NCBI GenBank assembly: GCA_006384855.1
Contig: VCJN01001409.1
Coordinates: 124,001 to 188,000 of the forward strand
Length of the DNA stretch: 64,000 nucleotides
Source of the DNA: Tetraselmis striata
Taxonomy: Eukaryota > Chlorophyta > Chlorodendrophyceae > Chlorodendrales > Chlorodendraceae
Reading direction: 5' to 3'
Of the stretch, positions 38,101 to 54,871 are shown one piece after another. Positions within the stretch are counted from its first letter, which is position 1, and the number at the start of each line of letters is the position of its first letter. A program made the translations under genes and the position numbers. The notes below the pieces were generated by a model that saw only the letters and a program-made list of their open reading frames with translations, searched no databases and was not told where the DNA came from.

Positions 38101-39412
38101 TTGTGAGGCCACCTTTCGGTGACCGCCGCAAAGCGCACCCTTGCAGCTCAACGGCGAGATGAGCGCCATGTATCAGGACCTGAACCCCCACCTTACAGAC
38201 TTCATTTAGACCTTCCTTGGTGCGGCGCTTCTTATAGCTACAGCCGAGTGCGGCTCAACCATCCGCACACCTGCACTTGGCGGTTCAACCAACCGCCTCC
38301 CGTACCATTTCATCACTGCGTCCGTCGGTTGTCACACTGTGTGTTACAACTGGTTCGCAACGACCAAGCTTCGCGCGTGTACGTTACGCGCGTGACATAC
38401 GCTACGAGCGCGAAGGGCGCGCGGGGCGGCCCTCGTACCTGAACCTAGCCCCGCAAACCCTGACTGGTGCTACATACTGCAACCCCGTCCAGCAACTACC
38501 GGCCAACCGCCGGGAACCTAACCGTTGCTGCCGAGTACTTTGCAAACCGTAGTCGCCCCCCTGGTACTTTGTCGGTAAAACGACACACTTACGTAATTGA
38601 CGAGCCCGAGGCTGTCGCTCCCTGGGCTGCTTCACTGCGATCTCGACTGCAGGATGCTTTCGGCTCGGACGAGTTGGGACAGCGGACGCTCGACATGCTC
38701 TCCAGCTCCCTCACCGCTCAGATACTCAAAAGCTACGTCGGCAGACTGTCTCAGTTCGGGGAGTTCTGCCACGACTCCCAGAACATTAGCCCGCTGGAGG
38801 CGACCACTGCTACTGTCGTCCGGTACTTTGCCTGGATTGGTGAGCGGGGGCACATTGGAGCTAGGTCACTGCAAGCCTACCTGTCTGCAATCAACACGTT
38901 CTTCGAGCTGCACAACCTCGACCCAATCGCCAAGGACAGCCTACACCTTACTGCAGCTAGGCGTGGGCTGATGCTGCGGCAACGCCGTCTGGAAGCCGCC
39001 CCTTTGCGAGTTCCTTTGCCTGCTGATGTAGCGCACAGTTTCGTCGAGAAGGCCGAGTTGATTGTGTCTTCTTCCACCACCGAGTTCCAGCGCAACTTCC
39101 GAGCCCTCGTGGCCTTGTGGCCAACTTCATGTTCTTTGCCATGGGACTGACTAGCGTCTCCTGCCGAGTGCGGGAGTGTCGGATTATAACATTACCCTGC
39201 AGGTGTACCGCGAGAAGGGCCGCGCTTGCCGACGGGGACCCGACGACTTACGCGTGCTTCTCCTTCCGGTGTCAGAACACCCCCGAGTTGCACGTCTCCT
39301 GCACCATTTCATCGACAACGTACAATATGTCCCCCTGGTTACTGTTGCCTTGGCTGAAACAAGCTTCTGGCGGTCACCTCAAGCGAGCAGGCAAAACCTT
39401 GGACCGCCGCTA
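38101..39412 (+). pseudogene. YR-2 recombinase, N-terminal and middle part
   Basis: The frame at 38467-39150 matches YR-1 ORF2 (AYLSAINTFFELHNLDPIAK against PYLSAINTFFELHNLVPIAK). Frame changes occur at about 39110-39150 (deletion in the FFARGLT region) and before 38467. The homology stops at CCGCTA (39412), where the 15.1 kb insertion begins. Confidence 0.85.
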
Positions 39413-40023
39413 ACATTGGTTCAAAATAAATGTTAGGTGCGTCAAAAGTTTCATGGTTGCGGTGTTAAGCAATGTTGGCCTCAAAACCCTTGTTTTTAGG
39501 GGACCAGACACACGCCACAAAATAATCTAAGTGCCGACGTCTTGCCCCCGGGCTAGCATGGATGGCTCGCGGGTCAACGTGATGATCACGGATACAGCTT
39601 GGTACAAATGATGATAACGGAGATAACTTGGTACTGTATTGCCAAGTAACGTGGGCCGCGCTGAGGTGTTAGTATGGCTAACTAAGTCTGTAATCGAAAT
39701 GGTCTATCATCCTCTGAAACCATAACATTGCCATTGATATTTTCATGTATAATCAAAGCTAGCATGCAGCAAAACATGGATGATAATAAAAGCAATGCAA
39801 GAGTAAAGTTCCATAACATAGACAAGCTCCGAAACCATCATGTTTGTCATGCAGCCGAAAGGCATGAAGTGAGGACATGAATAATATGCAGATGATTGCT
39901 CCGAAACTAATTGCGGTGACACATTGTTACACATGTATTCATGGCCGGCTCTCAATTGGAAAGTAGGCCCGGCCGCCCAAGTGCCTACGCGCACACATGA
40001 GGCCGCTTGCGGCAGGAAGCGGC
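39413..40023. other. Left subterminal region of the 15.1 kb element
   Basis: No gene. It contains the left terminus and the 3' flank of the methyltransferase gene. AT-rich stretches with ATGATAATAAAAGC-like motifs near 39780 could include the polyadenylation region of the minus-strand gene. Confidence 0.4.
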
Positions 40024-40674
40024 TTAGTCACCCAGCGCATCACCATCAGCATCGCTGGAAGCATCATTATCGACATCGTCATCACTCTCCGAATCCGCGG
40101 CCTCGGAGGAGTGGCCACCCTCCTCCTCCTCCTCCTCCTCCTCCTCCTCCTCCTCGGTTTCCTCCTCGTCATCATCATATTCATCCTCCTCGCTACCGGT
40201 ATTGTCTTCACCGGTGCCCTCCTCCTCCCCCTCCTCCTCCTCCTCCTCCTCCTCCTCCTCCTCCTCCTCCTCCTCCTCCTCATCATCATCATCATCCTCG
40301 CCAACGGGATTGGCGACATCCTCATTGGCCTCGGCTTGCTCGTTCTCCTCAGTGGCGTGGCCATCATCTTGGCATGCAGCAATACTCTTGCCCACATGTG
40401 CCAGCGAACAGAGTTCTTGCGCCAGAGGCTCTTCAGCCTCCTCCTCCTCCTCGCCATCCTCAGCATCACCGCCAGCTTTCCTCGGAAAAGTTCCGAGTTT
40501 GCGATCCTCCAGCGCGTCGGCTTCATCTTTGCTCATAGCCAACCACTCTTTGATCCTCGTCACGGCGCCTTCGTGCTGGGTGTCGTCTTTCTCCACCAAG
40601 ATGACGGAGTCGGGGGTTTGAATGCGGGCCTTGCGGCTAATAGCCCGGTCTTGCATTCTGACGATGGAAGCAAG
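40024..40674 (-). CDS. Acidic C-terminal exon of the methyltransferase protein
   Basis: Follows an AG acceptor (TTTTTCGCAG before CTTGCTTCC) and closes with TAA at 40024. The first part (VRMQDRAISRKARIQTPDSV) completes the methyltransferase fold. The last 100 residues are almost pure Glu/Asp, encoded by GAG/GAC runs (plus-strand CTC repeats at 40116-40155 and 40218-40281). Polyacidic tails of this length are common in histone-binding nuclear proteins; such a role is inference. Confidence 0.65.
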   Translation of the reverse strand, partial: LASIVRMQDRAISRKARIQTPDSVILVEKDDTQHEGAVTRIKEWLAMSKDEADALEDRKLGTFPRKAGGDAEDGEEEEEAEEPLAQELCSLAHVGKSIAACQDDGHATEENEQAEANEDVANPVGEDDDDDEEEEEEEEEEEEEEEEEGEEEGTGEDNTGSEEDEYDDDEEETEEEEEEEEEEEEGGHSSEAADSESDDDVDNDASSDADGDALGD

Positions 40675-43600
40675 CTGCGAAAAATCACATGCACAAAGTA
40701 ACCGGACGGCCACACTATTTTGATGACAGAAAATATAAATTTTGGTTGTTCACTTTTGGTTGTATTACTTGTGATATAGACATTGATGCCGGGGCCACGG
40801 ATCACTTACCGTTGTAGTGCCTGTGCCGCAAGTCGCATCCAAAATGACACTTCCCGGTTCCGTGGCAAAGTCCAGGATCCTCCGAATGAGCGCAATTGGT
40901 TTTTGCGCGCTGTTGGTGGGCTTGCTCACATCGGTTGACTCCAGCCGGAATATGTTGGAGGATGGTATGCGGGCGCAATAGGGGTTGGTAGTGTACCGCT
41001 CGGGCTCAGTGGGATCCTTGAAGATGTCCAGTTGGTGGCCGGGTGGCCAACACATCAAGAATATCTCACCGTCGGATGTGAAACGGTCACCGGCGCAGTT
41101 CCCGCGATTCTTGCTCCAATAGAACAGCTTGAATTGCATGTCGCGCTCGGAGATGGCGGCCATGGCATGGGGAAGTGCCTGGTCCGCAAGGAACCAGATG
41201 AACTTGCAATTCTGCAGGCCATCGTTGCAATGATCCACCAAGCTCAGTGTGTTCTTGAATTCCGAAGTCCATGCCACATCCCAGGGGCCCAAGTTGAGCC
41301 CGTAGTTGCTGTCTGCGAGGAGAAGAGATACGGGCTTTGCTGTGGATGCCACCAACTGCTTGATGTTGTCCCTGTGATTGTCGAAATCACCCTTGATGGT
41401 AATGTGCCTATAAACAAAAAACAATTCTCTCTTATTTTAGGGACCGCGTTGCGATTGCCTGCATGACACCGCCAGCCGTGGGGAGGTGGGGGGGGGGGGG
41501 GCTACTTTGAAATGAGATCACGGTGATGATGAATCAAATTCCATTGCTGGGCATCTTTTGTCAACGGCGCAGCCTGAGCGCGCTTGCTGAAATTGCCGCT
41601 CTTGACTTTCCTAATCCAATCGTGCCACTTCAGGAAGAGTTTTTGCCGGACCGGAGTGAGCTGGCGCTGTTGCCTCGCAGTGGTGTACGTCGTTGTAGCA
41701 AAGAAAGTCCTCATGGACGACTCCCATTGAAGAGGGTCCTTAGGCGGTGTCCTGCATATGCGAGTGTGTGAAGAGATACCATCTTAATTAGCTAAAGGAA
41801 TGTCAAATGCGAATTTCTATATCAAGCCCCACCGGAATTTGGGGAAAATACGCACCAGTTCTCTGCCGGAATGGGCTGTAGATACGCCTGGACTTGATCC
41901 TCCTTTGACCGGATTACGGGGTGGAGCAGGATAGCAAATCCTTGAGCATCGGATTTCTCAAGGTCCGAGGAAATTGCTTTGGTCCAGGTTCCGGTCGAGC
42001 GCACAAAGGTGTCCCAATCCGCGTCTGGATTGTAGACACGCACAAGAAACGTCAGTTTGCGATAGACAAAGCGCCAATAGAGCTACGAGGTACGGTTATT
42101 TCCTTGGCGCAACCTACCGAATTCATGGCCACAGTGGGTGAGGACGACCCCCCAGAGATACTCCACGTTCTACAGGTGAGTAATGGCGGGAGTGCAAGTG
42201 TTGCCGTTTGGAAACAGAGACAGATTGTCGCTGGGATTCATCAGCCGGTCGACCACCTACCGAATCTAAGCACCACATGACAAAGTTTCTTCAGTAATGA
42301 TTCATACCATGGTTGAGGCAGATGGGATGTATGAATATGAGAATGGCACGATTTACCTCTAGATATCCCCACCGTGAATGTGATGTAGCAGTAAGCTCCT
42401 TCATGACTTGCTCGGGGAAATGCGGCTTGAGGGATTGATCAGCTTCCTCCGAATTTGGGCGGTAGCAATCGATGCCAGCCTGCAATGCCAACTTCTTGGT
42501 GAAGTGCATGTAGTCCCTATCAAGACACCTAGACTTGAAGATCTCGTTGCACTCCCTGATGATGAAGTCATCCTTTTTGCGAGCTGGCTTGGTGGCAGAC
42601 TTATTTTTCAATCCTTCGAGCAGCTTGAGAATAGACCCTTGCTCCGGCAATTCCAGACTTCCGCTTTGAAACGCTTCCATGAGCTCCTCGATTGCCTTCC
42701 AAATGTCATATTTCCTCATGACAGTAGCCTTGAAAAGAGCGGCGTAAGATGGCGGACCCAATTGACCCTGAGAAGTAGAGAATGCCAACTGTTAGGATAT
42801 ACAACTGTATTTGTTGTCTTTTTATGTATCTTATCCAACGTGGCCCGATGCCCCCATCCACAGCATGGACGCATGCTTCCATCCACAGCATGGACACAAG
42901 CGAAGATGTTCTTCATGTATGACACAGCGACTTGTGAGATGTTTCCTAATCTACAGTGTAAATCCATGTCAACCTTAAACTAAAACCTAAATAAATTATT
43001 ATGTAGAGTCGATAATATATGCTCATATGTTTCAGGATATAAATGTAATTTTAGAAGTTATATGTACTGACTGACACATATCTACATATGTTTGGGGAGG
43101 GACACTCACGTTTTCTGGATTCCGCTTAAGAGCGAATCCGCAACTCTTCCATAGGTAGCTGAACCTCGAGTACTTCTCCTTCATAACCGGATCTGTGACC
43201 AGATCGTCCTTGCTCTCGCTACTCCAGCGCTTGTAGGAGAACTCTTCTTCGTCACCCTCACCCTCGAGTCGCTTGTCATCAATCTCGCGCAGCATCTCGT
43301 ATTCTTTGCGAAGAAGGCGGAAGTTGTCAAGCTGGGTGTTGACTATGGTGTTGGCATTGGTGACATTTTGATGATTGCCGATGTATCTCGCAACCTGCTC
43401 ATTCAATGCGCAGAGAACGAGGCACTCCCACTTGGATAGCTCCTGCTTGATGGCTTCGATCTCGGTTCGGGAAATCACGACCTTTGAAGCCGCCCTTCGG
43501 TGATTACCGACGATGACATAGAAGTTGAATTCCTGATTCATCCTTCCGATCCACTCTTGTCATGTGTAAATAAAAACTTTGTTAGCAAACAATTTGTGAG

Positions 43601-46600
43601 ATGGCAAAACGTTGGGAAACTTTGCAGCAATCTTGATCGAGAGTTTCGGGTTGAACCAAGCAACAATAGCCGGGGTAATCATACCTTGGACCCGAAATCA
43701 TCTGTTTTCAACATCTGGCCAACCTCCTTTGGCTTCAAGGTCTTAGAACTCGTCTTGTTGGTCACCAAAACAATAAAATTGCCTTTGGACTGATCCTTGC
43801 CGTTGGCATGTGCACGTTGTCGATTCTTAGATTGAGAGATCAATAACCGGTTTGCGGTATTCATATTTCCAGCTTTAATCCAAATTTGCAATACGGCGTT
43901 AAGGTGGCTTATTTACCTCGAACTCATAAGCCAGGTCGTGGACATGAGGCATGTGGAGCGTACGCGCGGCGAGATCGTCTGTTGGAGGAGAAAGGACTTC
44001 GATTGGTAGCTCGAAAGTGCCAGCCGACCCAGAGCCACCCGGCACCTGAGTGGAGAACAAGAATCAGTTACATAGAAACTACGTTAGCAGCAGACAGGAC
44101 AACTAATAAGATAGTTGAAATTTTCATGAGCGATGAATGGGCCGATCGCGCACCCTGGCGTTTAGTGTCACGAGGCTTAAAATCTTGACCCCGGAGCTCG
44201 GATCGACAAGATGTTGCGATCCATGCGTTGCAAACAAGCCAAGGTAACCATTCAGGAAGATGTTGCAGAGGTTTGTCTTGGCGTTCTTCCTCATGAAAGG
44301 GACTTTTTTCTTCGCGTGTAGGTTCACAGCTTTTGAAGTCAGGACGTCCTGAATCGTGTCTCTTGCGTACCCGGGGTTGAAAAGCCACGCAGGGATGTAG
44401 CCCCATGTACTTGATAATAACGAAGCAGGGGTTGGGTTCATGGATATCGGAACTAGGCCAGAGATGGCGAGGACACCCTGCGTTGAATCACCGCTGTCCT
44501 TCTTGAATCTGAACAACAAACTATCTGTCCCGCTTATCTCGACTGATGCAACATCACCAAGCTTGATGGGGGAATAACATGGATATACTCCCCTTGGACC
44601 GGCAACAGTGCCAGCTTTGTCACATCTCTCCTCCTTGTCTGCGAAGATAGTCATAATTAGTAAAATGAATAATTAAATGAAGACTATATGCATAATATAA
44701 TTATATCATAAGAATCCACTTTTGTCCAACATAGACAATGGTAACCCTGTACATGATTGACGCATGCGTCCATCCACAGCATGGACGCACGCGTCCATCC
44801 ACAGCATGGACGCATGCTTCCATCCACAGCATGGACGCATGAGTCCATCCACAGCTGGCCGCATGAGTCGTTCCATGGGATCGCAATATTCCGCTCAAGT
44901 ACTTACTACTTGTACACATGTGTAACACAAAGAAACCTACCTACGCGAAACATAAATATAGCGGCAATAAATGTGTTAATATAGTTGCACATTTCAATAC
45001 GTGCAAAACGTGTATATATGCAATATGTGTGAAATGTACGGGACTCACCCATGAAAATATATTCGATGGTTCAAGGGCATATGAAAGCTGTGATAAGCTA
45101 CCTTCATACAAGAACACTTGAATAGTGCCGTTGTCAATGTACTTCAGTCACCAGTCGTGGTTTGGCTGTGAAGGAGTCCAGTCCAGTGGGCGCCTGTACT
45201 TCAATAGAGCTGGAGCGGTTGATATCTTGAAATAATGCAAAAAATAGCTTAGTAGATGAACGAACTTAAAATAAAAATGGAAATTAAACATTTTTAATTA
45301 GCACGAAATGATGTGGCTTGAGTGGTTACCTGAGCTCTTGTGTGTTTGTACCCTGCTTGGATGCGGTCTTTGCCTTTGATGTAGCCTTTGCCGGCTGTTT
45401 TTCGCCGCGTTCTTTGAGAGCCTATGACAACCAACAGCGCCGTTGTAAGTGAATGAATCGATGAATCCATGCGCGTCAAGATTCATTCGAAGAATTAACT
45501 TCACTGACAGTTCAAACGTACCCGACTTGAGCCGCTGCTGATGCATCATGTGTCGCCTTCCCTTGCGACGACTCACCGAGTGCCCTGCAATTTAAACACA
45601 AAGCAGCACATAATTATTAGATGTGTGGTCTATGTTATAAGCAATTTTTATGTATGTCGATGTCACTCTTCTACTTACGTTGCAGTTGATGGGGCGGCGG
45701 GCGGCGCTGCCAGCGAGCCGCATGCGGCAGCCTCTTTTGGAGTTTTTGGCACGGCAGAAGACCTCGAAAATGCATCCGTGTATAACTGTCAGAAGGATAG
45801 CTCATTGCCGCGCGTGCTTTGATTGACACCGACTCGGACAACAAAATGACTATGAAGCATTCCTTAACGGCATATAGGGACTTACCCCACGGGAGCCCGG
45901 GCAGATGACTTGTTCGTAGCCTTCTCCTTTGCCGTCTTCGGCTCTTCGGCCGGTAACTTTGAGCCTTGCTTTGCGGCTTTAGACTTCTTGGGGGACTTTG
46001 AAGGCCTACATGACACAGAGCATCATTTTAGCCACATAGTGATTTACTGTATATGAGCCGGTGGTGTAAGTTATCAAGGTGTTATCAACCCGAGCATGTA
46101 GTCTTCCCGAATGGAGCAAACAATCATACCCGGCCGCGGTATGAGTTGGAGTCGCCTTTTCGGCCTTCTCCGCGGGCTTCTCGGCAACCCTATCATAAGC
46201 GCATAGCATTGTATTAGAGGGCCAGGCAGTCATATGAACATTAAAAAACTACTTTGCTATTAAAATACAAGTGATAAATAGAAGCAGAACAGAGTTAGTA
46301 ATGGTGGTCGAAGGCCGGTACTTACGGTGAGTCTCCTGCGATGAACCAAGGCTGCCAAAAATGAAGCAGCTCGGCATGTGTAGGCTTCTCTGGAACAACC
46401 TCGCACGGCTTTGGCACCTCCCTGAGTGTCATGCGGAAATATAGGTACGTACGATCTCATCTCTGAAACGATGAAAGCAACTACGCGACGGCATATAAAT
46501 CAAACGATTGTTAAGTTAGTCAGAGAGTGTCTCCTACATACCTCTGCCTTGCGAAGCATGCCGCTTGGTACCTTGCAACGGCGATGATTTCGTCACTTTG

Positions 46601-48060
46601 TCGCCACACGGAGGTGATAACATCGAAAGGTGCCCCGGTGTCATTGAACTTCGTCATCGCACCACCCGATACTATTTCGATGAGCTCTTTGATATGGACA
46701 CCGACCGCTGGCGTGCCGTATATCGGTCGCATGTGTTCCCCATTAGAGTAGGTTAGAAGAAGAAACTCGCCGATTTTCCTGTAGAGGCACCAACATCATG
46801 ACTCAGTTTCTACTATTCGGTATAAAAGCATAGGTCGGAAGGCACGCGAAAATGTAAAATCAATGGGCAAATAATGGGCAGGCACTTACGGATCACAATC
46901 ATCGCGACATGCGGGGCCCTCAACATCGCTTGCCTCCTTGCGGCACTTGCGGAGGAGAGTAGTGGCTTGAGGTTTTGACAAGCAGCCATCCTCGACTGCC
47001 GCGTCAAGGTTCTCCCATTTGCCGTTTGTTATGTGACGCACGGCCCGTTTGACATTGTCGTGCAACAAGTGCGTCCCCATGAAGACGCCCGCGTGAGCGT
47101 ATGGAAATTCTTGCTCGATAAAGGGCGGGCCCGGGTCGCAGTATGCCTGGTTCCTATAGGAAATTTATGACATGGTTATCACACCTCAGTTATCACACCC
47201 AAGGGATATTGTGTCCCCGAATTGAAGGTGCATGCTGGCGGTACTTGGGGAGCACTTACCAGGGAATCTCACGGTGATGCGTTCCATACCGAACTGCCGG
47301 ATTGTCTTTTCTACCCATTTTGAGGTCGGCATCGAAGTACGCCTCCCGGCCCTCCCTTTCATATAGCCTTTTGAACCGGGTTAGGAGTTTCATCCACCTG
47401 CAAACACAAATTTATACCAATTATTTAGTAAGATGACGCCGGGAAAGGCACTTGGGCGAATGAATCCCGCTTAGATCGTAAGTAAGGAGGCACTCGAGAA
47501 AATCACTTACTCTTCAAGTTTGACGGTGTCGTCAACCTCAGGCGTACTGACTGTGGGTGAAGTTGCCTCTGCCACAGTCGGTTCAGCTGCCGTTGGTGGC
47601 TCGGGTAGCTGTGTGTCGTGCTCGTCCTCATCCTCGGCTGTGTCAGCCCTCGCGGATCCCGGAATGGATTCCCTGCCGAATGGGTAGGTAGCCTTAGTTC
47701 CCAAATCGAAAGCAGCATGAGAAATCAACAACCCGGCGAGAATGGTTAATATAAGAAAACAATGAGCGATTTCAACTTACATTGGCTTGGTCTTGCGCCG
47801 CTTATTGGTCCAGTCATGAGGAAGGTTATCGATGACATCTCTTCCCGCTGACTGTACGCTTTGCGGCTCTCTCTTCGGCCGACAAGTTTTTTTCTCCCGG
47901 ATCTCCTCGGGTAGGCCGTGAACGTGATGTGCCCTCCGCGGCCAACATTTTGGCGGAGAGATTTTCCCCTTTGCCCCCTTTCGATCTCGAGGCAGCCGCT
48001 CGGAGCGCCTCCAGGTCTGTGCTATCTGGAGACACGATGGGCTGGTCCAGAGCATAGTAC
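40024..48060 (-). CDS. ParB-like / amino-DNA-methyltransferase fusion gene, multi-exon
   Basis: A minus-strand gene read from about 20 segments, most with good GT/AG borders. Approximate exons from 5' to 3': 47781-48040, 47511-47693, 47270-47397, 46889-47160, 46548-46778, 46327-46436, 46127-46198, 45886-46016, 45684-45772, 45525-45593, 45334-45423, 45092-45225, 44185-44638, 43917-44045, 43685-43872, 43110-43555, 42357-42767, 42118-42169, 41833-42024, 41506-41752, 40810-41407, 40024-40674. Order of parts: unknown N-terminal domain, Lys/Pro-rich linkers (EKPAEKAEKATP, SKSPKKSKAAKQG), ParB-like domain, methyltransferase, acidic tail. Likely a nuclear protein. An in-frame TGA at 45148-45150 (after PNHDW) and a possible frame change near 47850 suggest this copy is damaged; alternatively it is two genes. 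Confidence 0.62.
40116..40290. repeat. CTC/GAG triplet repeats
   Basis: Two long CTC tracts separated by about 60 bases give poly-Glu on the minus strand and spurious poly-Leu or poly-Ser frames on the plus strand. Confidence 0.9.
40810..41407 (-). CDS. Beta-type N4/N6 DNA methyltransferase catalytic exon
   Basis: The motif order IV - X - I is that of beta-class amino-methyltransferases. PVSLLLADSNYGLNLGPWDV sits where the catalytic (D/N/S)PP(Y/F/W) is expected; KPIALIRRILDFATEPGS is motif X-like; VILDATCGTGTTT is the AdoMet-binding motif I. A segment FLMCWPPGHQLDI lies between them. The catalytic box reads DSNY instead of DPPY, so either substrate specificity differs or activity is impaired. 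The exon ends at a GTAAGT donor right after motif I, and the next exon continues LASIVRMQDRAI. Confidence 0.72.
42846..42900. repeat. Hairpin minisatellite, 2 units, in an intron
   Basis: Two copies of the CATCCACAGCATGGACgCAt-type unit within the intron between the exons ending at 43110 and starting at 42767 of the methyltransferase gene. Same family as the arrays at 44757 and 48441. Confidence 0.8.
43110..44045 (-). CDS. ParB-like domain exons
   Basis: Exon 43917-44045 contains LAARTLHMPHVHDLAYEFE, which has the R...hv..La..f pattern of the ParB N-terminal domain. Exon 43110-43555 contains FNFYVIVGNHRRAASKVVIS, the ParB signature VxGxHRxxA. It is followed by a helix-rich part (AIKQELSKWECLVLCALNEQ) and an acidic KRLEGEGDEEEFSYKRW segment. 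In bacteria and phages ParB-like domains are CTP-binding or nuclease-like modules and are often fused to, or encoded next to, DNA amino-methyltransferases. That pairing is what makes this call credible here. Confidence 0.6.
44757..44875. repeat. Hairpin minisatellite, about 5 units
   Basis: Tandem 25-30 bp units with the core CCATCCACAGCATGGACGCA, located in the intron just upstream of the exon that begins at 44638. TCCATcCACagCATGGA is nearly self-complementary. Confidence 0.85.
45092..48060 (-). CDS. N-terminal exons of the fusion gene, unknown domain
   Basis: Exon 47270-47397 reads WMKLLTRFKRLYEREGREAY and FDADLKMGRKDNPAV and ends at a GTAAGT donor. Exon 46889-47160 has PPFIEQEFPYAHAGVFMGTH and a Cys-containing end (CRKEASDVEGPACRDDC). 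Exon 46548-46778 has EHMRPIYGTPAVGVHIKELI and ends CFARQR before GTATGT. Later exons are short and Lys/Ala/Pro-rich. I recognise no family. Because 45092-45225 contains a stop, this block could be a separate upstream gene rather than the N-terminus of the methyltransferase protein. Confidence 0.45.
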
Positions 48061-48440
48061 ATGACATAAGCATATTGACAAAATAGTAACAATAAAGCAT
48101 GTCGCACTGTTTCTAAAATTTCAATATTGCTTCCATGCTGTGACTGACCGCATGGTCCACACGAAACATAATGGGATATCATGCCTCAGAAACACCACAC
48201 CAGAATATGCTCCCGAAAAGTTTCATAATCGATCACCATATAAGGGCGTTTTGACTAGACAATTCGCCGACATGTAAATTTATCCAGAATTACGCTTATT
48301 TCTACAGTATTTGAACATTACATGGGTTCAATAGTCCCATAATTCAGTAATTGCAAAATCAGGTAAAATAGACACTTTCTTTCATTCATACAAAAGAGCT
48401 TAGGTAATCCAAAGCTTAAGGTTGGTTTCCTTTGGAAGTA

Positions 48441-48840
48441 TATCGATCCACGACACGGACGCTTGCTTCCATCCACAGCATGGACGCATGTTTCCATCCA
48501 CAGCATGGAAGCATGTGTCCATCCACAGCATGGACGCATGCTTCCATCCACAGCATGGACGCATGTGTCCATCCACAGCATGGACGCGTGCGTCCATCCA
48601 CAGCATGGACGCATGCGTCCATCCACAGCATGGACGCGGGCGTCCATCCACAGCATGGCCACATATGTCCAGCTAATGAATGGAAGAATGCTTGTATACA
48701 AAGGATTGATAAATGTATCCATGCTCAGCATGGACACATGTATCGATGCTCAGCATGGACACATGCTTCCATCCACAGCATGGACACTTGCTCCCATCCA
48801 CAGCATGGACACTTGCTCCAATCCACAAGATGGACGCAGT
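48441..48840. repeat. Hairpin minisatellite, main array, 25-bp period
   Basis: From 48471 the core ATCCACAGCATGGACGCATG recurs every 25 bp for about eight units, then continues less regularly to about 48840 with the variants GCTCAGCATGGACACATG and CACTTGCTCCCATCCACAG. Because 25 is not a multiple of 3 and the unit lacks stops, every frame stays open on both strands; the Cys/Trp/His-rich frames there are not genes. The array lies 5' of the methyltransferase gene, between the two divergent genes. Confidence 0.92.
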
Positions 48841-49917
48841 CAAACACACTACTGTTTAACCAACATCGTCTACGACCACCTAATTACGAGCTATAACGAA
48901 AGTCCATTTATAATATGAAACCCGGCAACCCACAATAATTAAGGGCTCAGGAAAATTTTATTAAGAAAGGCACGATGGACGAGGCCTCTCTCACCTGTCG
49001 CGTTTCACTTTCAGGTGGTTCCGTACTCCCGCTCTCACCAGGCTTTGTCTGCTGTTGCCCGGGGAAAGCTATCCTTGGCGAATTCCAGATCGCCGATATC
49101 CACGCACTCATGAGGCCGAGCGGCCGAGTGGCCGCCGCCTGCAGGCGCGCAGCATCGCCATCGGCACATATCAGTCAGTACAGATAAACGCGGGGACACA
49201 GAGAACCCGAGGTTGAGAGAGCAGGCTAGCGGCGCAGGACTCGACACTCAGTAACAGAGGTGGGCGGGGATGGGCGAAGTGCGAAGTTGTGGGTCCATGG
49301 GCGTTACCTAGCGGTTGACCGGTAGGGGCGTGGGGCAGATGGGGTGACCTGATCCAGCGCTTGACCTGCTCGGTCGCGAACCATACCGCATCCAGCCACA
49401 GTTTAGTTTAGGGCAAAGGAAATGGCAAAGGCTCGGCTTCGTGAAAGCGGCGGACCTGTCTGGGCGGGCTCGCAAGGAAGTGGATGGTGGTGTTGCGGTT
49501 GTGGAGAAGTGAGTTATGAGCTCTCGTCAGCAGCCCTTGGTCAGCAGTTGGGTTACAGGGTTACAGCACAAAGTACTGGCACCGCGCATATATGACGATA
49601 AATACTACACCGAATAATACCGTTCGAAGTGTTACGGAATGTACTGTATATCATCAATTTCTGTAGTTTTACAGTAGTACTGGTTAGTGAAATAAATCCA
49701 TACTGTACGATGTATTGCGATGATCGGTATGTGAAACGCGTTGACCGGGTGCTCGCAACCACAGATATGGAGGGCAACCTTTGACCGACGAGTCAACATG
49801 CAATCCGAAATACTACGCAAGGTTTGACTGAGGTCGATCGTGGGGCGGTCCACCATCAAACTTCTTCTCATTTCACACTCTCTCGCCCACGCTCATCCCC
49901 AACCCCCGTCCTATCCG
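48841..49917. other. Intergenic region between the divergent genes
   Basis: Probably contains the promoters of both genes of the 15.1 kb element. No domain-bearing frame. No distinctive promoter motif could be assigned. Confidence 0.4.
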
Positions 49918-52900
49918 ATGGCGCTCACTTCATCTTCCAAGCCGATTCACGGCACTTGTGTCGTGCCAAATAAATCTCGCAATTCCGGTAAGCTCGGCCA
50001 AGCCGAGTATCGCTTTATTAAGCGCGATGGCGCCATTGGTGGAGGAAAGACCACCGGTTTGAGCTTTCGTCGCGATACCCAAGAGGGCATCCTCTCGTGC
50101 GCGTTTGTTGTTGACTCGCGCGGCCGCAAGGCCGTTCACCCGTGTTGCAAAGGCAGCAAGTGCCTCTTTCGACTCATTGGCTCGCCTCTTGACCCATCGG
50201 CACCTACTGCGGTAGAAGCCCGTTGCCGCGACGAATTCCTATTTGACGTTCGCGAGACCCGAAAGGAGGTGCATGCGGAGGGACAAAATCGCTCACGCGA
50301 TATCCTCGCTTCCCGACTCAAGCTCGCGTTCCAACCGGAGGAGTCTTCGCCATCCTTCGTTGAATGTTATTCCTACATTGAGACCCGCGACGACTCGGAG
50401 TCGAAGCAGCAATGGTGATGGAAGAGGCCCAACGGAACCTTCATCCGGGTGAGTGCCTTTCCGGTACTTTAGCCTTCGATTACTTCCGTCGAGTGTGCTC
50501 CAACTGTGTATCGACGCAAGTGTCCTTTCTAACAATCGACTAGCCAGGACTCCACATACCGATCATGAGTAATTATAAAGTTTTGTCTTGGTCTGTCTAA
50601 TGCTGCACTAAATTCCTTTGCTGCTTTCAAGCATTCCTAATACTGCCTAGCTCGAATATATTTGTGTCCATCCAGTGGCGCGCGCATGTGTCCATGCTAG
50701 AAACCGACGATTGTTAACATGTCGAGCTTAAGTAATAATACCGTTTTCCTTTGATCGCACATGTACTGTTGCATTGAATTCATTGCTTGGTTTCAAGCAA
50801 GGCCATTATTCTATATAGCTGTAATATGTTTGCGTCCATCCTGTGGATGGACGCATGGCGCTGGGAGAAACAACTGAGTACATCAATTAGTATATTCGAG
50901 TTGAGGTAAAGATCTACTATCGCATCGAACCTTAAATGGATTTGGTTTTCGTTTTCCCTCTAGAGTCGCCATGCGTCCATCCACAGGATGGACGCACTGT
51001 GCGTCCATCCTGAAGATGGACGCAAGGTGCGTCCATCTTGAGGATGGACGCAAGGTGCGTCCATGCTATGGATGGACGCAAGGCGTGTCCATCCTATGGA
51101 GGGACCCGTGGTGACTCGAGGGGATTGTGTCGGACACCACACCACACGACCTACGCAATAATCTCAAAATGTTTTCTTTTATGTGTCCTATTTTGCAGAC
51201 CTGCCGCGAGGCGTGGAAGTTCATCCACCACGTTTCGGAGCGTAGGCTCTCAGAGATTCAGCGCGATGTTCTGAATGATGCGATTCCATTCAAGCGGGCC
51301 AAGGCTCCCAAGGTTTCTCCCCTACGCAGCCATGCAAGAGCATGGCTTCACCTCTACTTGTCCGACGCTAGCGGTAGGCTTGAGCATATTCCCAACCCCT
51401 CTGGCGGACAAGCGCAAAGCCATCTACCATGTTGGATGAGGAAGTCTCGGGTCTACAAGTTGTATGTGGCCGACTGGAATGATCAGAACAATGAGTGCTC
51501 GGTTCTATCATTCCCTCCCTGCCTCTCCCGGCCAATGGGCTTGCAACTCGTAGTACATGGTCTTTTGGCAACGTACTAACAAGATTCCCAAATTGATTTA
51601 GGGAAGCCCGCATCTATTTCCCCCTTCCACCGAGCGTGGTTGCAGTTCTTTCCGCATGTGAAGGTACCGAAGACCAAGCGCTTCACCAAATGCAGCGTGT
51701 GTGCCAGTTCCGCCAATATTTTGCGGTGCGGCCACAAACCCACCATGAGTCGTAATGGATACTAAGTGTGTTGCATGAGCAAACGCCCGGTCGTTCTAGC
51801 GAGAAATAACTGCGATTTTGAATGCGGTACTAACTAACCTGTCAATGGCATTGTTGCCGCAAACGTTATTCTAGGTACAACAAGACCCTGTCGATAGAGC
51901 TGTCGCTCGGCGCGTGCAAGAGCAACATCTGGAGAGGGTACTGCACGAGAGGCATTTCTTGGAAGTGGCCTTGCAGTACTCCCGCCAAAAAAGGGACCTC
52001 TTTGTTTGCGAGATCGATGGCATGGATCAAGACAAGACCCGTGTTCCTCATCTTGTGCCATGGGACAAGGAGGTGGAGAAGAAGAACCTCCTGCAATGTC
52101 ACTTGACATGCGTCAAGTACAACGGGAGCGAGCCGGACGACGTGTTATACTTTTTCGACTGCTTCCCTCACGACAGTAGCAACACCATCACCGTCATGTA
52201 CAAGACTATCAAGAAGGAGATCGAGAGGCGTGGCGAGGCATTGGACACTGTGTGGTTCCAGCTCGACAATGCTTGCCGGGAGAACAAGAACAAGTACGTC
52301 ATGTGCTTTTGCCAATGGCTCGTGCACATGGGTTTTTGCAAGTAAGTCCGTCTCTCTTTCCTTCCAGTAGGGTAAGCCCCCCCCCCCCCCCCCCCCGAAA
52401 AAAAAATCCGCACCATCCACTGACTTACATTATTTATGTTAACGGGTCCACCAGTCGCCAAGTTGGGGCCTTACTGACTTTTACTATATTGTATACCTTC
52501 CAGGCACACCCACGAGCGCGTGCACCAAGTCTTCTCGAAATTCTCCGTGTGGCTTGACGACCACGCCGCATTCACCAAGGCTCAGCTTTTGCACGAGCTT
52601 CGTCAGGCCTTCACCCCGACATGCAACTTCATGGAGCTCGAGGGAGTCCTCGACATCAAGACTTGGCTTGGCAATTGTCTTCCACGACAAGGCCAGGTGC
52701 TTACCACGGTGACTTCTAACCAGTTCGTCATCAGGCAATCGGAGGCTGTGGTCGGTGGTGTACGCAGCAACCTGTATTGCAGTCGTTGGTCCGATACCGC
52801 AGAGCATGGGCCAGAGTTCTTCCTTCGCGGAGTCCCCGACGGCACCCCTGCGTACCTTGCTTCTCGCCCTCTCTACCACTCCAAGGCTGACCCGGGCAAG

Positions 52901-54026
52901 GCTTTTGCTGAGATGGAGAAGGAGATTTGGAAGGCTGCGGATAGGTTGCACTTCTCCGCGGATGAGAGGCGAGAATGGGAGGAGGAATTCGCTTCGCTCC
53001 TGGAACTGGAGACGAGGGATCGAACTCCCATCCTGGCGTTTTGGCCCGAGTCTACCACGGAGCTTGACACTTGGCTAGGCGCCTTGCTATCTGGCAGAAA
53101 TCTTGACGCCGATGATCCCATGTCTGCACGTATGCGTTCCCAGCCTAGGCTTGACCAAACATGCCAAGGCATGGCGCGCAGGTACGCCGACCTTCAAAAG
53201 GAGCTTCGGGTCTTGACGTACAACCCCATCACCATCAACACCTCCACTCAACGCCGGAAGCGCCGGCGGGGGGCGCAAGCGGCTACAACAGCGGTTAAGC
53301 ACTCGAACGAGGCCGATAGCGAGGCCGACCGTCAGGAGGGGGGTCAGGACGTCGCGATCCCGTTGGAGAATGAGGGCACTACCCGTCGCGAGTTTGACGC
53401 CCGTCCCGGCAATTTGGTCGTCATGGACAACACCGCCGACAACCCCGACGCGTACCCCGAGGACAACCCCGTACCGCGAGGAGGGTCTTCTCGGCGATTG
53501 GGAGAACAAGTACCTTGTGGCCTACGTAAGGTACCGGTATGACGTCCAGGATTTGGATGGCTTGCCCGAGGACCACACCGAAGTTGACGAGTTGGACGTC
53601 ACCATGTGCGAGCCTTGGTTGTCGACGCCGCATGGGAAGCCCGACATCCCGCTCACCTTTGCCATCGCGGCGGCCCGACAGAGTCGCGACCCAGAACCGG
53701 ACTCATCTTGGGAGGCTGCGAAGAAGATGAAATGGTTGCCTATCACCACTATGCCTCTATCGCTCTTCAGCTTGCGTTTCCCGAACGTTCGCCGGACCGC
53801 CCGCCAGTGCCAGCACGACTTCCGTGGCACCAAGCTAACTGCCGTGACAAGCATGAAGGGCGTCTCGGAGATCAAGGACTCCAGACACAAGAACCTTGTT
53901 GTGCGCCGGCCCTTGGCAAAGCTTCGCTACACCATGCAATTGCAGGAAGAGGCGAATAGGGAGTGCGGTGCTTCGTTGCCCCTCGACGGCATTAGGCACA
54001 TGGAGATCACTTACGAGCTTGCATGA
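49918..54026 (+). CDS. DUF7869-type RNase-H-like transposase-like gene, multi-exon
   Basis: Segments: about 49918-50414, 51199 to about 51540, 51602 to about 51750, 51875-52341, 52504-54026. The catalytic exon 51875-52341 carries CEIDGMDQDKTRVPHLVPWD and WFQLDNACRENKNKYVMCF; the next starts HTHERVHQVFSKFSVWL. D(GMDQDKT) ... LDN ... HTHE is the acidic triad pattern I know from DUF7869 proteins, found in many repeat-rich eukaryotes and RNase-H-like. A putative Cys pair (FTKCSVCASS) precedes it, as is usual. A basic RRKRRRG run may direct it to the nucleus. The reading shifts frame at about 53466-53490, and exon 1 does not join exon 2 in a clean phase, so this copy is probably inactive. The upstream ATG at 49840 is possible, but MALTSSSKPIHG at 49918 fits better. 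Confidence 0.68.
50836..50860. repeat. Isolated perfect hairpin of the minisatellite family
   Basis: GCGTCCATCC-TGT-GGATGGACGC is a perfect 10-bp inverted repeat with a 3-base loop, within the first intron of the DUF7869-type gene. Confidence 0.85.
50970..51112. repeat. Hairpin minisatellite, 28-bp variant, in an intron
   Basis: Five units of the form GCGTCCATC-loop-GATGGACGC followed by AAGGT or ACTGT. Each unit is an inverted repeat whose loop varies (CTGAA, TTGAG, CTATG). It lies in the intron before the exon starting at 51199. The family core (GTCCATCC / GGATGGAC) is the same as in the arrays on the other gene. Confidence 0.88.
53466..54026 (+). pseudogene. C-terminal part of the DUF7869-type protein after a frameshift
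   Basis: The upstream frame ends in a low-complexity tail at 53542, while the overlapping frame (53370-54026) takes over with EGLLGDWENKYLVAYVRYRY and ends MEITYELA at 54026. The continuity of protein-like sequence across two frames around the CCCCGTACCGCG stretch (53466-53480) shows a one-base indel or a sequencing error. The C-terminal piece has KDSRHKNLVVRRPLAKLRYT and no recognised domain. Confidence 0.6.
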
Positions 54027-54561
54027 CTCCGTGCCGCGCTCAACGTCCACAAACTCGGTGTCGACAACAAACGCAGGTGGTTCAACGACCACGGCTTCAA
54101 TGCAGACGAGAAGAAGTGCGTTTTGGACATGTTGACAATATAATGATAGACAGTGGTGTAAGTTGTACGTACGTATCTGTAAGGGCCTTTGTGGGGGGCG
54201 GGGAGGGGGGGGATGCGAGTGTTGGCTGCTCGTGCCCAATAGACAATGCGATTTGAGCACTATAACAATTAGACACTTAAAGTATTTGCCCTCGCACGCT
54301 TGCCCCACGATCATACGACGTCAAACACAATGAATTGATGGGGTGGCGCGCGTCCTGACTTAGGTTTTTCCTCGCATCCGCTCTGCGCATGCCCAATTTT
54401 GCACGTTTTGCGCGGGCAAACAATGAAAATGAGCGCAACCAAGGGGATTTTGTGCATGTGTGCCTCCAAAACATGCGTTTTGAGAATTTCGTGCAAAATG
54501 GCTCAAAAAAGGGAACTTTCACAAGTGAATAACATAACACTTTAAGTGAACGCCTGTTCGA
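54027..54561. other. Right subterminal region of the 15.1 kb element
   Basis: No gene. It contains several TTTTGCAC/GTGCAAAA and CAAAACATGCGTTTTGAG-type motifs and a G-run (54193-54210). The terminal 20 bases before the TA are CTTTAAGTGAACGCCTGTTC followed by GA. Confidence 0.5.
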
Positions 54562-54871
54562 TACGATGTCGGACTGGCTGTCTACATCCGTCCGTCTTGT
54601 CGGTGCTTCCCCTCCCGCCGTCACTTCCTGGACCTCACACAGCCTTCGCAAGAGAGCAGCGTCTGCCGCCAACGCCATCGGAGTTCCATTGTCCCACATT
54701 CGCTACCAAGGCGGCTGGGCCACTAACTCCGACGTCGTTCTGGACTACATCGACCCCAACGTTCTTCCTTCACCTGGCGCATGGTTCTTCTTTGGCCACA
54801 TTGCCCCCCTCCGCCACTTCCAAGTCCAACAGGACTCCGCAGCGGTGACCTTCCCGGTGCCTCCTTCATGA
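54562..54871 (+). pseudogene. YR-2 recombinase, C-terminal catalytic part
   Basis: Starts TACGATGTCGG directly at the right end of the 15.1 kb insertion and reads MSDWLSTSVRLVGASPPA, TSHSLRKRAASAANAIGVPL, then GGWATNSDVVLDYIDP. The H-x-x-R box and the nucleophilic Tyr are kept. It is the continuation of 38101-39412. B1 and A2 follow. Confidence 0.88.

Follow-up and report, generated by a model that had tools for sequence, protein, structure and literature searches.

What is the 15-kb insert that interrupts a repeated gene in the 64,000-nucleotide stretch of Tetraselmis striata DNA considered here, and what use could it make of a methyltransferase-like gene lying opposite a probable transposase? 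The whole stretch (the window) is C1134:124001-188000 within the 224-Mb, 2903-contig assembly in which our genome searches were made. A first-pass annotation had described the insert as a large transposon bordered by a TA duplication and carrying two divergent genes, one of the DUF7869 type and one combining ParB-like and methyltransferase parts. We find that it is a genuine multi-copy DNA transposon of T. striata, a chlorophyte, and we consider it reasonably probable that this is a large cut-and-paste, Sola-like element in which a DUF7869 transposase is accompanied by a dedicated ParB-like/methyltransferase accessory protein that acts on element DNA.

Ends, target duplications and copies of the element

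The element in the window, which belongs to a group of copies that we call family A, extends from 39412 to 54558 and reads AACATT...TGTT at its ends. A query made from the left end returned 40 matches (the best 40 of 1548 candidates); apart from the window's own match there were 39, of which 36 start at 39404-39413. The right-end query returned 41 (the best 40 of 1652 candidates), and once the window's own is set aside 38 of 40 stop at 54558-54563. The insert is therefore as sharp and discrete as the first-pass annotation had held, with the borders given there, 39413 and 54561, corrected to 39412 and 54558. Alignment of the copies at their ends reveals an imperfect inverted repeat, AACATTGGTTCAAAATAAATGTTAGG on the plus strand at 39412..39437 and, on the minus strand at 54533..54558, a sequence whose reverse complement starts AACAGGCGTTCACTTAAAGTGTT. 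AACA...TGTT termini are found in the 11 copies in which both ends were compared, one of which has AATA on the left.

The target duplication is 4 bp long, and it is perfect in seven of these 11 copies (C1735, C1479, C1400, C2762, C2311, C1658 and C2620). In the window it reads CGCT on the left (39408..39411) and CGAT on the right (54559..54562), with three of the four bases alike and one mismatch. The claim that only TA had been duplicated was wrong, and a TA duplication is ruled out by the other copies, which terminate at TGTT and duplicate 4 bp. Because C458 and C2620 have a left flank in common, and C2351 and C536 have another, some family A copies may be recombined.

Uninterrupted versions of the target are found elsewhere in the genome. 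When the two flanks were joined into one query, all 40 matches listed (the best 40 of 1893 candidates) ran unbroken through the junction, and the six empty sites that we fetched all read ...GACCGCCGCT|ACAATG, with CGCT at the insertion point. The first-pass annotation had named the target a YR-2 recombinase open reading frame (ORF); the interruption is borne out, and this repeated gene is likely to encode a tyrosine recombinase, as suggested by matches of the left-flank ORF to Phage_int_SAM_1 (E=1.5e-4, slightly above the cut-off) and of the empty-site ORF to Phage_integrase (E=0.24). The right-flank piece of the target had no domain match in the profile search. P0014 (JGI T. striata protein TSEL_016165) aligns exactly at the window locus over 559 of its 560 residues, in six pieces that include flank outside the insert. 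The P0012 and P0014 gene models both join DUF7869 exons to recombinase-like sequence resembling the window flank, so that a further copy of family A may lie in such a gene too.

Further copies with the same ends, which the first-pass annotation had proposed to look for, are present. Five besides the window hold both genes between those ends (C2351, C1735, C1479, C1400 and C2762), so its claim was not refuted by the lack of a second copy or by genes found apart. The C2351 copy is colinear with the window throughout its length, C1479 is without 44163-45963, and C1735, C1400 and C2762 contain duplications or nested insertions, while a further five copies carry internal deletions (C2311, C1658, C458, C2620 and C2897). 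The methyltransferase gene model P0001 has 115 matches across its exons (the best 74 of 915 candidates). Family A looks young, because in 200-bp blocks the seven copies compared with the window show differences of about 1 to 16%, mostly 2-8%. The end of the DUF7869 gene (53412-54011) differs by about 1% among copies, versus about 3-5% in the adjoining blocks. Two right ends of family A, one 95% and the other 86% identical to the window, stand face to face about 190 bp apart at C1986:5000-7000, as an inverted or end-to-end copy.

Two divergent genes within the insert

Both of the divergent, intron-containing genes that had been annotated in the insert are there. The DUF7869 gene lies on the plus strand (49918..54143), and its window copy is interrupted by stops in exon 1 and near the end and by frame breaks. 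Its core, found by profile match and copy comparison, falls into a first part with the acidic motifs DGMD and QLDN (51881..52342) and a second with the motif HTHERVxQVF (52505..52816), where x is H in the window copy and D in all seven other copies. The DUF7869 profile matches two window exons at E values of 1.9e-17 and 8.4e-12, and the gene model P0004 at 1.2e-25. Because the acidic motifs are conserved (DGMD, QLDN and HTHERVD are kept among copies) and every gene-bearing copy read includes this gene, its product is most likely the transposase. When changes from the majority base in six family A copies were compared with 1000 neutral redraws, omega for the DUF7869 gene was 0.60, a value reached or undercut in 2 of the 1000 draws, and the gene is thus under constraint among these copies. 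None of the papers that our literature search covered names the DUF7869 domain. Intron 1 contains a 28-bp minisatellite (50831..51114).

The second gene runs on the minus strand (40024..49111) in about 23 exons, which were read by eye with mostly GT/AG borders; the acceptor at 42058 and the donor at 44155, which belong to different exons, are tentative. In the window copy, two exons contain in-frame stops and a third exon has a frame break. In the order of translation it comprises N-terminal exons with no recognised domain and no constraint seen among six copies (46542..47672), ParB-like exons (43110..44045), a methyltransferase exon (40810..41407) recognised by profile and alignment, with motif IV as DSNYG and motif I as DATCGTGTT, and a last exon (40024..40674) in which we read by eye an ILVEKD motif followed by an acidic tail. 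In the JGI numbering, TSEL_020997 and TSEL_020998 are adjoining DUF7869 and methyltransferase models. A 25-bp minisatellite occupies an intron of the methyltransferase gene (48441..48838), with others at 42849-42904 and 44751-44877; such repeats are found in introns of both genes and in both of the families described below, with units that differ between the two.

The N6_N4_Mtase profile matches the window exon at E=2.8e-9 and the joined exons at 6e-10, and CcrM is the nearest match to the methyltransferase part in both NCBIfam (5.3e-7) and the PDB (2e-5). As in CcrM, motif IV precedes motif I, and this order is that of the beta-class adenine methyltransferases; where CcrM has DPPY, however, the T. 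striata proteins have DSNY or, in the second family, DALF, and they are fused to the ParB-like part. In the PDB alignment, ILDPFFGVGTT of CcrM lies over ILDATCGTGTT at motif I with 20.0 bits, and ADPPYNLQLG over ADSNYGLNLG at motif IV with only 5.1 bits for that piece alone. The tetrapeptide DSNY is present in all six family A copies read; among the seven T. striata models found, the four that hold motif IV have DSNY (three) or DSNF (one). The combination of ParB-like and amino-methyltransferase parts in the first-pass annotation fares unevenly: the second is backed by its profile, and the first, unsupported by any profile, has as its sole basis the motif G-N/S-H-R-R-x-A, which reads VGNHRRAA in family A and DGSHRREA in the second family. 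A bacterial fusion of ParB and adenine methylase parts, Bce_0392, has been described as nicking DNA through its ParB part (PMC5512222).

Four gene models (P0002, P0021, P0022 and P0023) splice from within the methyltransferase exon to a point beyond motif I and so lose the loop predicted to bind S-adenosylmethionine (SAM), which P0001 retains; they reflect either alternative splicing or a prediction artefact.

A second family and the age of the gene pair

A more distant family, B, was found as a 12,455-bp element on C363, where it sits inside a family A DUF7869 gene, and as another copy on C1400, nested in a different family A copy. The two are independent insertions into the family A DUF7869 gene, separated by about 340 bp when placed on A coordinates. 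Family B begins AACAGTAATGCAACC and ends GGTTAAATTACTGTT, termini of the AACA..TGTT type, with 4-bp duplications in both copies by eye (CTAC on C1400, ATGT on C363). Its proteins are only distantly similar to those of family A, at about 26% identity on the methyltransferase side and 27-53%, depending on the segment, on the DUF7869 side, and it has the same gene pair, gene order, ParB-type motif and SAM motifs. In the family B copy that we read, the relevant segments are IADALFGAG, with DALF at motif IV, IVDVTAGTGTT and MILIDN.

Profile searches of the contigs gave 150 matches to PF25273 (the best 150 of 548) and 104 to PF01555 (the best 150 of 259), and the family B motif-IV exon gave 150 (the best 150 of 338), with 139 of these 150 free of stops. 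When the best 150 of 548 DUF7869 matches were paired with these 150 exons, a methyltransferase exon lay within 16 kb of 81 of the 150 DUF7869 matches; 79 of the 81 neighbours are divergent in one order and two are not, at a median distance of 9.2 kb among the matches listed. Conversely, 80 of the 150 methyltransferase exons have a DUF7869 match nearby among those listed; the limit of 150 matches on each list, together with contig ends, is one cause of matches left unpaired.

These numbers bear on the possibility that unrelated elements became nested by chance. Nested insertions do happen in family A, but the explanation is refuted by the two genes lying within the same ends in five other family A copies and by the single layout of 79 of the 81 pairs, and we give it next to no weight. 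Given that distant family B has like termini, duplications and gene order, and that 79 of the 81 neighbours are divergent, the pairing of DUF7869 and ParB-methyltransferase genes appears to be an old partnership. There is also a third DUF7869 lineage, P0020, at 45% identity to P0004 and about 30-47% to family B, with many decayed copies.

The five best PF01555 loci (C1010, C2009, C1597 twice and C803) were set aside as seemingly other genes, with DPPY, DVPY or DLPY by eye. The proteins on C1597 and C803 have DLPYG at motif IV, and two of them, by eye, adjoin a second methylase-like ORF, possibly within an integrated virus-like element; the genes on C1010 and C2009 look bacterial or phage-like by eye and are possible assembly contamination.

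Farther afield, all matches found among 5.8 billion proteins are from T. striata: three for the methyltransferase side, six for profile A3, and 17 for the DUF7869 side (among the best 7999 candidates by common words). A tblastn search of phage records (E<=1) gave no match to the family B methyltransferase part, and in IMG/VR contigs none was confirmed among 104 stretches matching two short peptide patterns of profile A3, the only patterns used, or among three stretches for P0020. Such searches cannot show absence, because they missed the published relatives in Ectocarpus and red algae.

Classification and the role of the methyltransferase-like protein

In 2009, Bao et al. reportedly described a 4-bp target-site duplication in the Sola superfamily. 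Sola elements have DDD transposases of the RNase-H fold. Duplications of this length are present in seven of 11 family A copies and, by eye, in both family B copies, as they are in Sola2 (PMC3627910). The element is probably of Sola type and Sola1-like, an assignment made by duplication length and gene arrangement. EnSpm/CMCT elements, described as having mostly 5'-CA..TG-3' termini and C(2)C and H(3-4)H between the second and last catalytic residues (PMC12730594), were set aside since the AACA..TGTT termini directly abut the 4-bp duplications; we saw no CxxC by eye between QLDN and HTHERVD, the latter holding only a putative last catalytic residue of DUF7869. KDZ elements, with duplications of 7-8 bp versus 4 bp here, were likewise set aside (PMC12730594).

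That a transposon should bring its own DNA-modifying enzyme had been thought unusual by the first-pass annotation, and here the literature is ahead of it. An Elsevier book chapter of 2011 on such proteins is said to be by Iyer et al. The account of Ectocarpus Sola1-1_Ec32 in PMC12477816 places a gene with ParB-like and N4/N6 methyltransferase parts opposite the transposase, and proposes that ParB-methyltransferase proteins bind and modify their own transposon; for proteins of green and red algae that resemble these, and that are by its own words of the same type, it refers to that chapter and to Petroll et al. 2025. Pairing of a transposase with a ParB-methyltransferase is thus already in print as a concept. 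Like the T. striata element, Sola1-1_Ec32 is described as a giant DNA transposon with this gene arrangement, the ParB part being recognised by motif in our case, but it measures 21.5 kb against 15 kb. Other transposons likewise carry DNA-modification genes of different kinds, as far as their published descriptions go. Fungal DNA transposons with TET/JBP genes (Kojima 2025, PMC12730594) encode a dioxygenase acting on methyl groups and belong to other transposase lineages; Mariner elements carried by viruses (Bao and Jurka 2013, PMC3627910) combine a methyltransferase with a Mariner transposase and an endonuclease; and retrotransposons have captured DNA methyltransferases of the C5-cytosine type (de Mendoza et al. 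2018, PMC5890265).

In the mechanism that we favour, the plus-strand DUF7869 protein would be a transposase of RNase-H type, cutting at the AACA...TGTT ends and inserting the element with a 4-bp stagger. The minus-strand accessory protein would combine a DNA-acting ParB-like part with an amino-methyltransferase fold of the beta class in which SAM binding persists, and would work with the transposase on the element's own DNA. Several observations weigh against this scheme. Flanking 4-mers are unmatched in three of the 11 family A copies (C2351, C458 and C2897). The ParB-like part has no Pfam match at E<=5 and no relevant NCBIfam match, and two AlphaFold2 models have mean pLDDT values of 36.5 and 34.6, too low for an RNase-H or methyltransferase fold to be read. 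No PF01555 match was seen by eye, among the matches listed, near the best P0020-lineage loci. C2311 and C1658 have lost most of the methyltransferase gene and retained most of the DUF7869 gene. Finally, among the six family A copies constraint on the methyltransferase exons is weak (omega 0.63; 62 of 1000 draws as low), and it is absent from the N-terminal exons (1.20; 823 of 1000).

The last two points would suit a captured gene that is decaying without any role in transposition. So would the value for the ParB-like exons (0.80; 228 of 1000) and the internal deletions that remove most of the gene from C2311, C1658, C458, C2620 and C2897. Linker E18 gave 0.87 (377 of 1000) and E20-E21 gave 0.68 (121 of 1000). 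A selection test based on copies is weak, however, because recent copies mostly decay neutrally, and retention across families is a stronger argument for a role of the methyltransferase gene than omega among copies. The gene keeps its place and orientation in two families whose proteins share about 26% identity, and family B motif-IV exons are mostly free of stops. We regard such a passenger as unlikely.

If the protein does serve the element, its action may or may not be catalytic. Active beta-class amino-methyltransferases have (D/N/S)PP(Y/F/W) at motif IV. The T. striata proteins have motif I and the acidic residue expected to bind SAM, and in families A and B alike they lack that motif-IV pattern. 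Both families retain GTGTT of motif I (C1735 reads GTCTT) together with the acidic motif that follows, and at motif IV they retain the D, the aromatic residue and, for most copies, the G that comes next. A working N6-adenine or N4-cytosine methyltransferase, marking the element's own DNA for recognition by the transposase or for escape from silencing, would account for the retained SAM motifs and for the similarity to CcrM, and is in line with the proposal published for Ectocarpus (PMC12477816). Against it stands the absence of both catalytic prolines of motif IV in A (DSNY) and in B (DALF), and we hold active self-marking to be possible, though less likely than not. The idea that the element has its own DNA-modifying enzyme, as first annotated, is borne out as to a methyltransferase-like gene with SAM motifs and weakened as to its activity, which may have been lost.

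En/Spm-type elements have a second protein that helps to assemble the ends. A non-catalytic methyltransferase module, binding SAM or DNA within a ParB-like factor that helps bring the ends together, could play a comparable part here: in both of these distant families motif IV has degenerated, yet its D, aromatic residue and, mostly, next G persist along with motif I. On the other hand, retention of the SAM site speaks for the cofactor being important, and any DNA sites that such a factor would bind are putative. We put this pseudo-enzyme forward tentatively, at somewhat under an even chance.

Whichever applies, DUF7869, a Pfam domain that has no name of its own, is linked by these results to transposons whose ends are defined and whose insertion duplicates 4 bp. 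The presence of two distant families in one genome, with dozens or more copies of each, shows that the pairing of transposase and ParB-methyltransferase is old. More speculatively, and with considerable doubt on our part, a whole lineage of algal transposons might, across deep divergence, have kept the methyltransferase fold minus its catalytic prolines, together with the SAM pocket, and so have made a captured ParB-methylase of bacterial type into a SAM-sensing, DNA-binding partner of DUF7869, which might itself then be a transposase domain hidden across eukaryotes by a label of unknown function. The role of transposon-encoded methyltransferase-like proteins becomes testable in a microalga by long-read methylation mapping, and if the enzyme is dead, the published idea of self-marking would need revision for this lineage.

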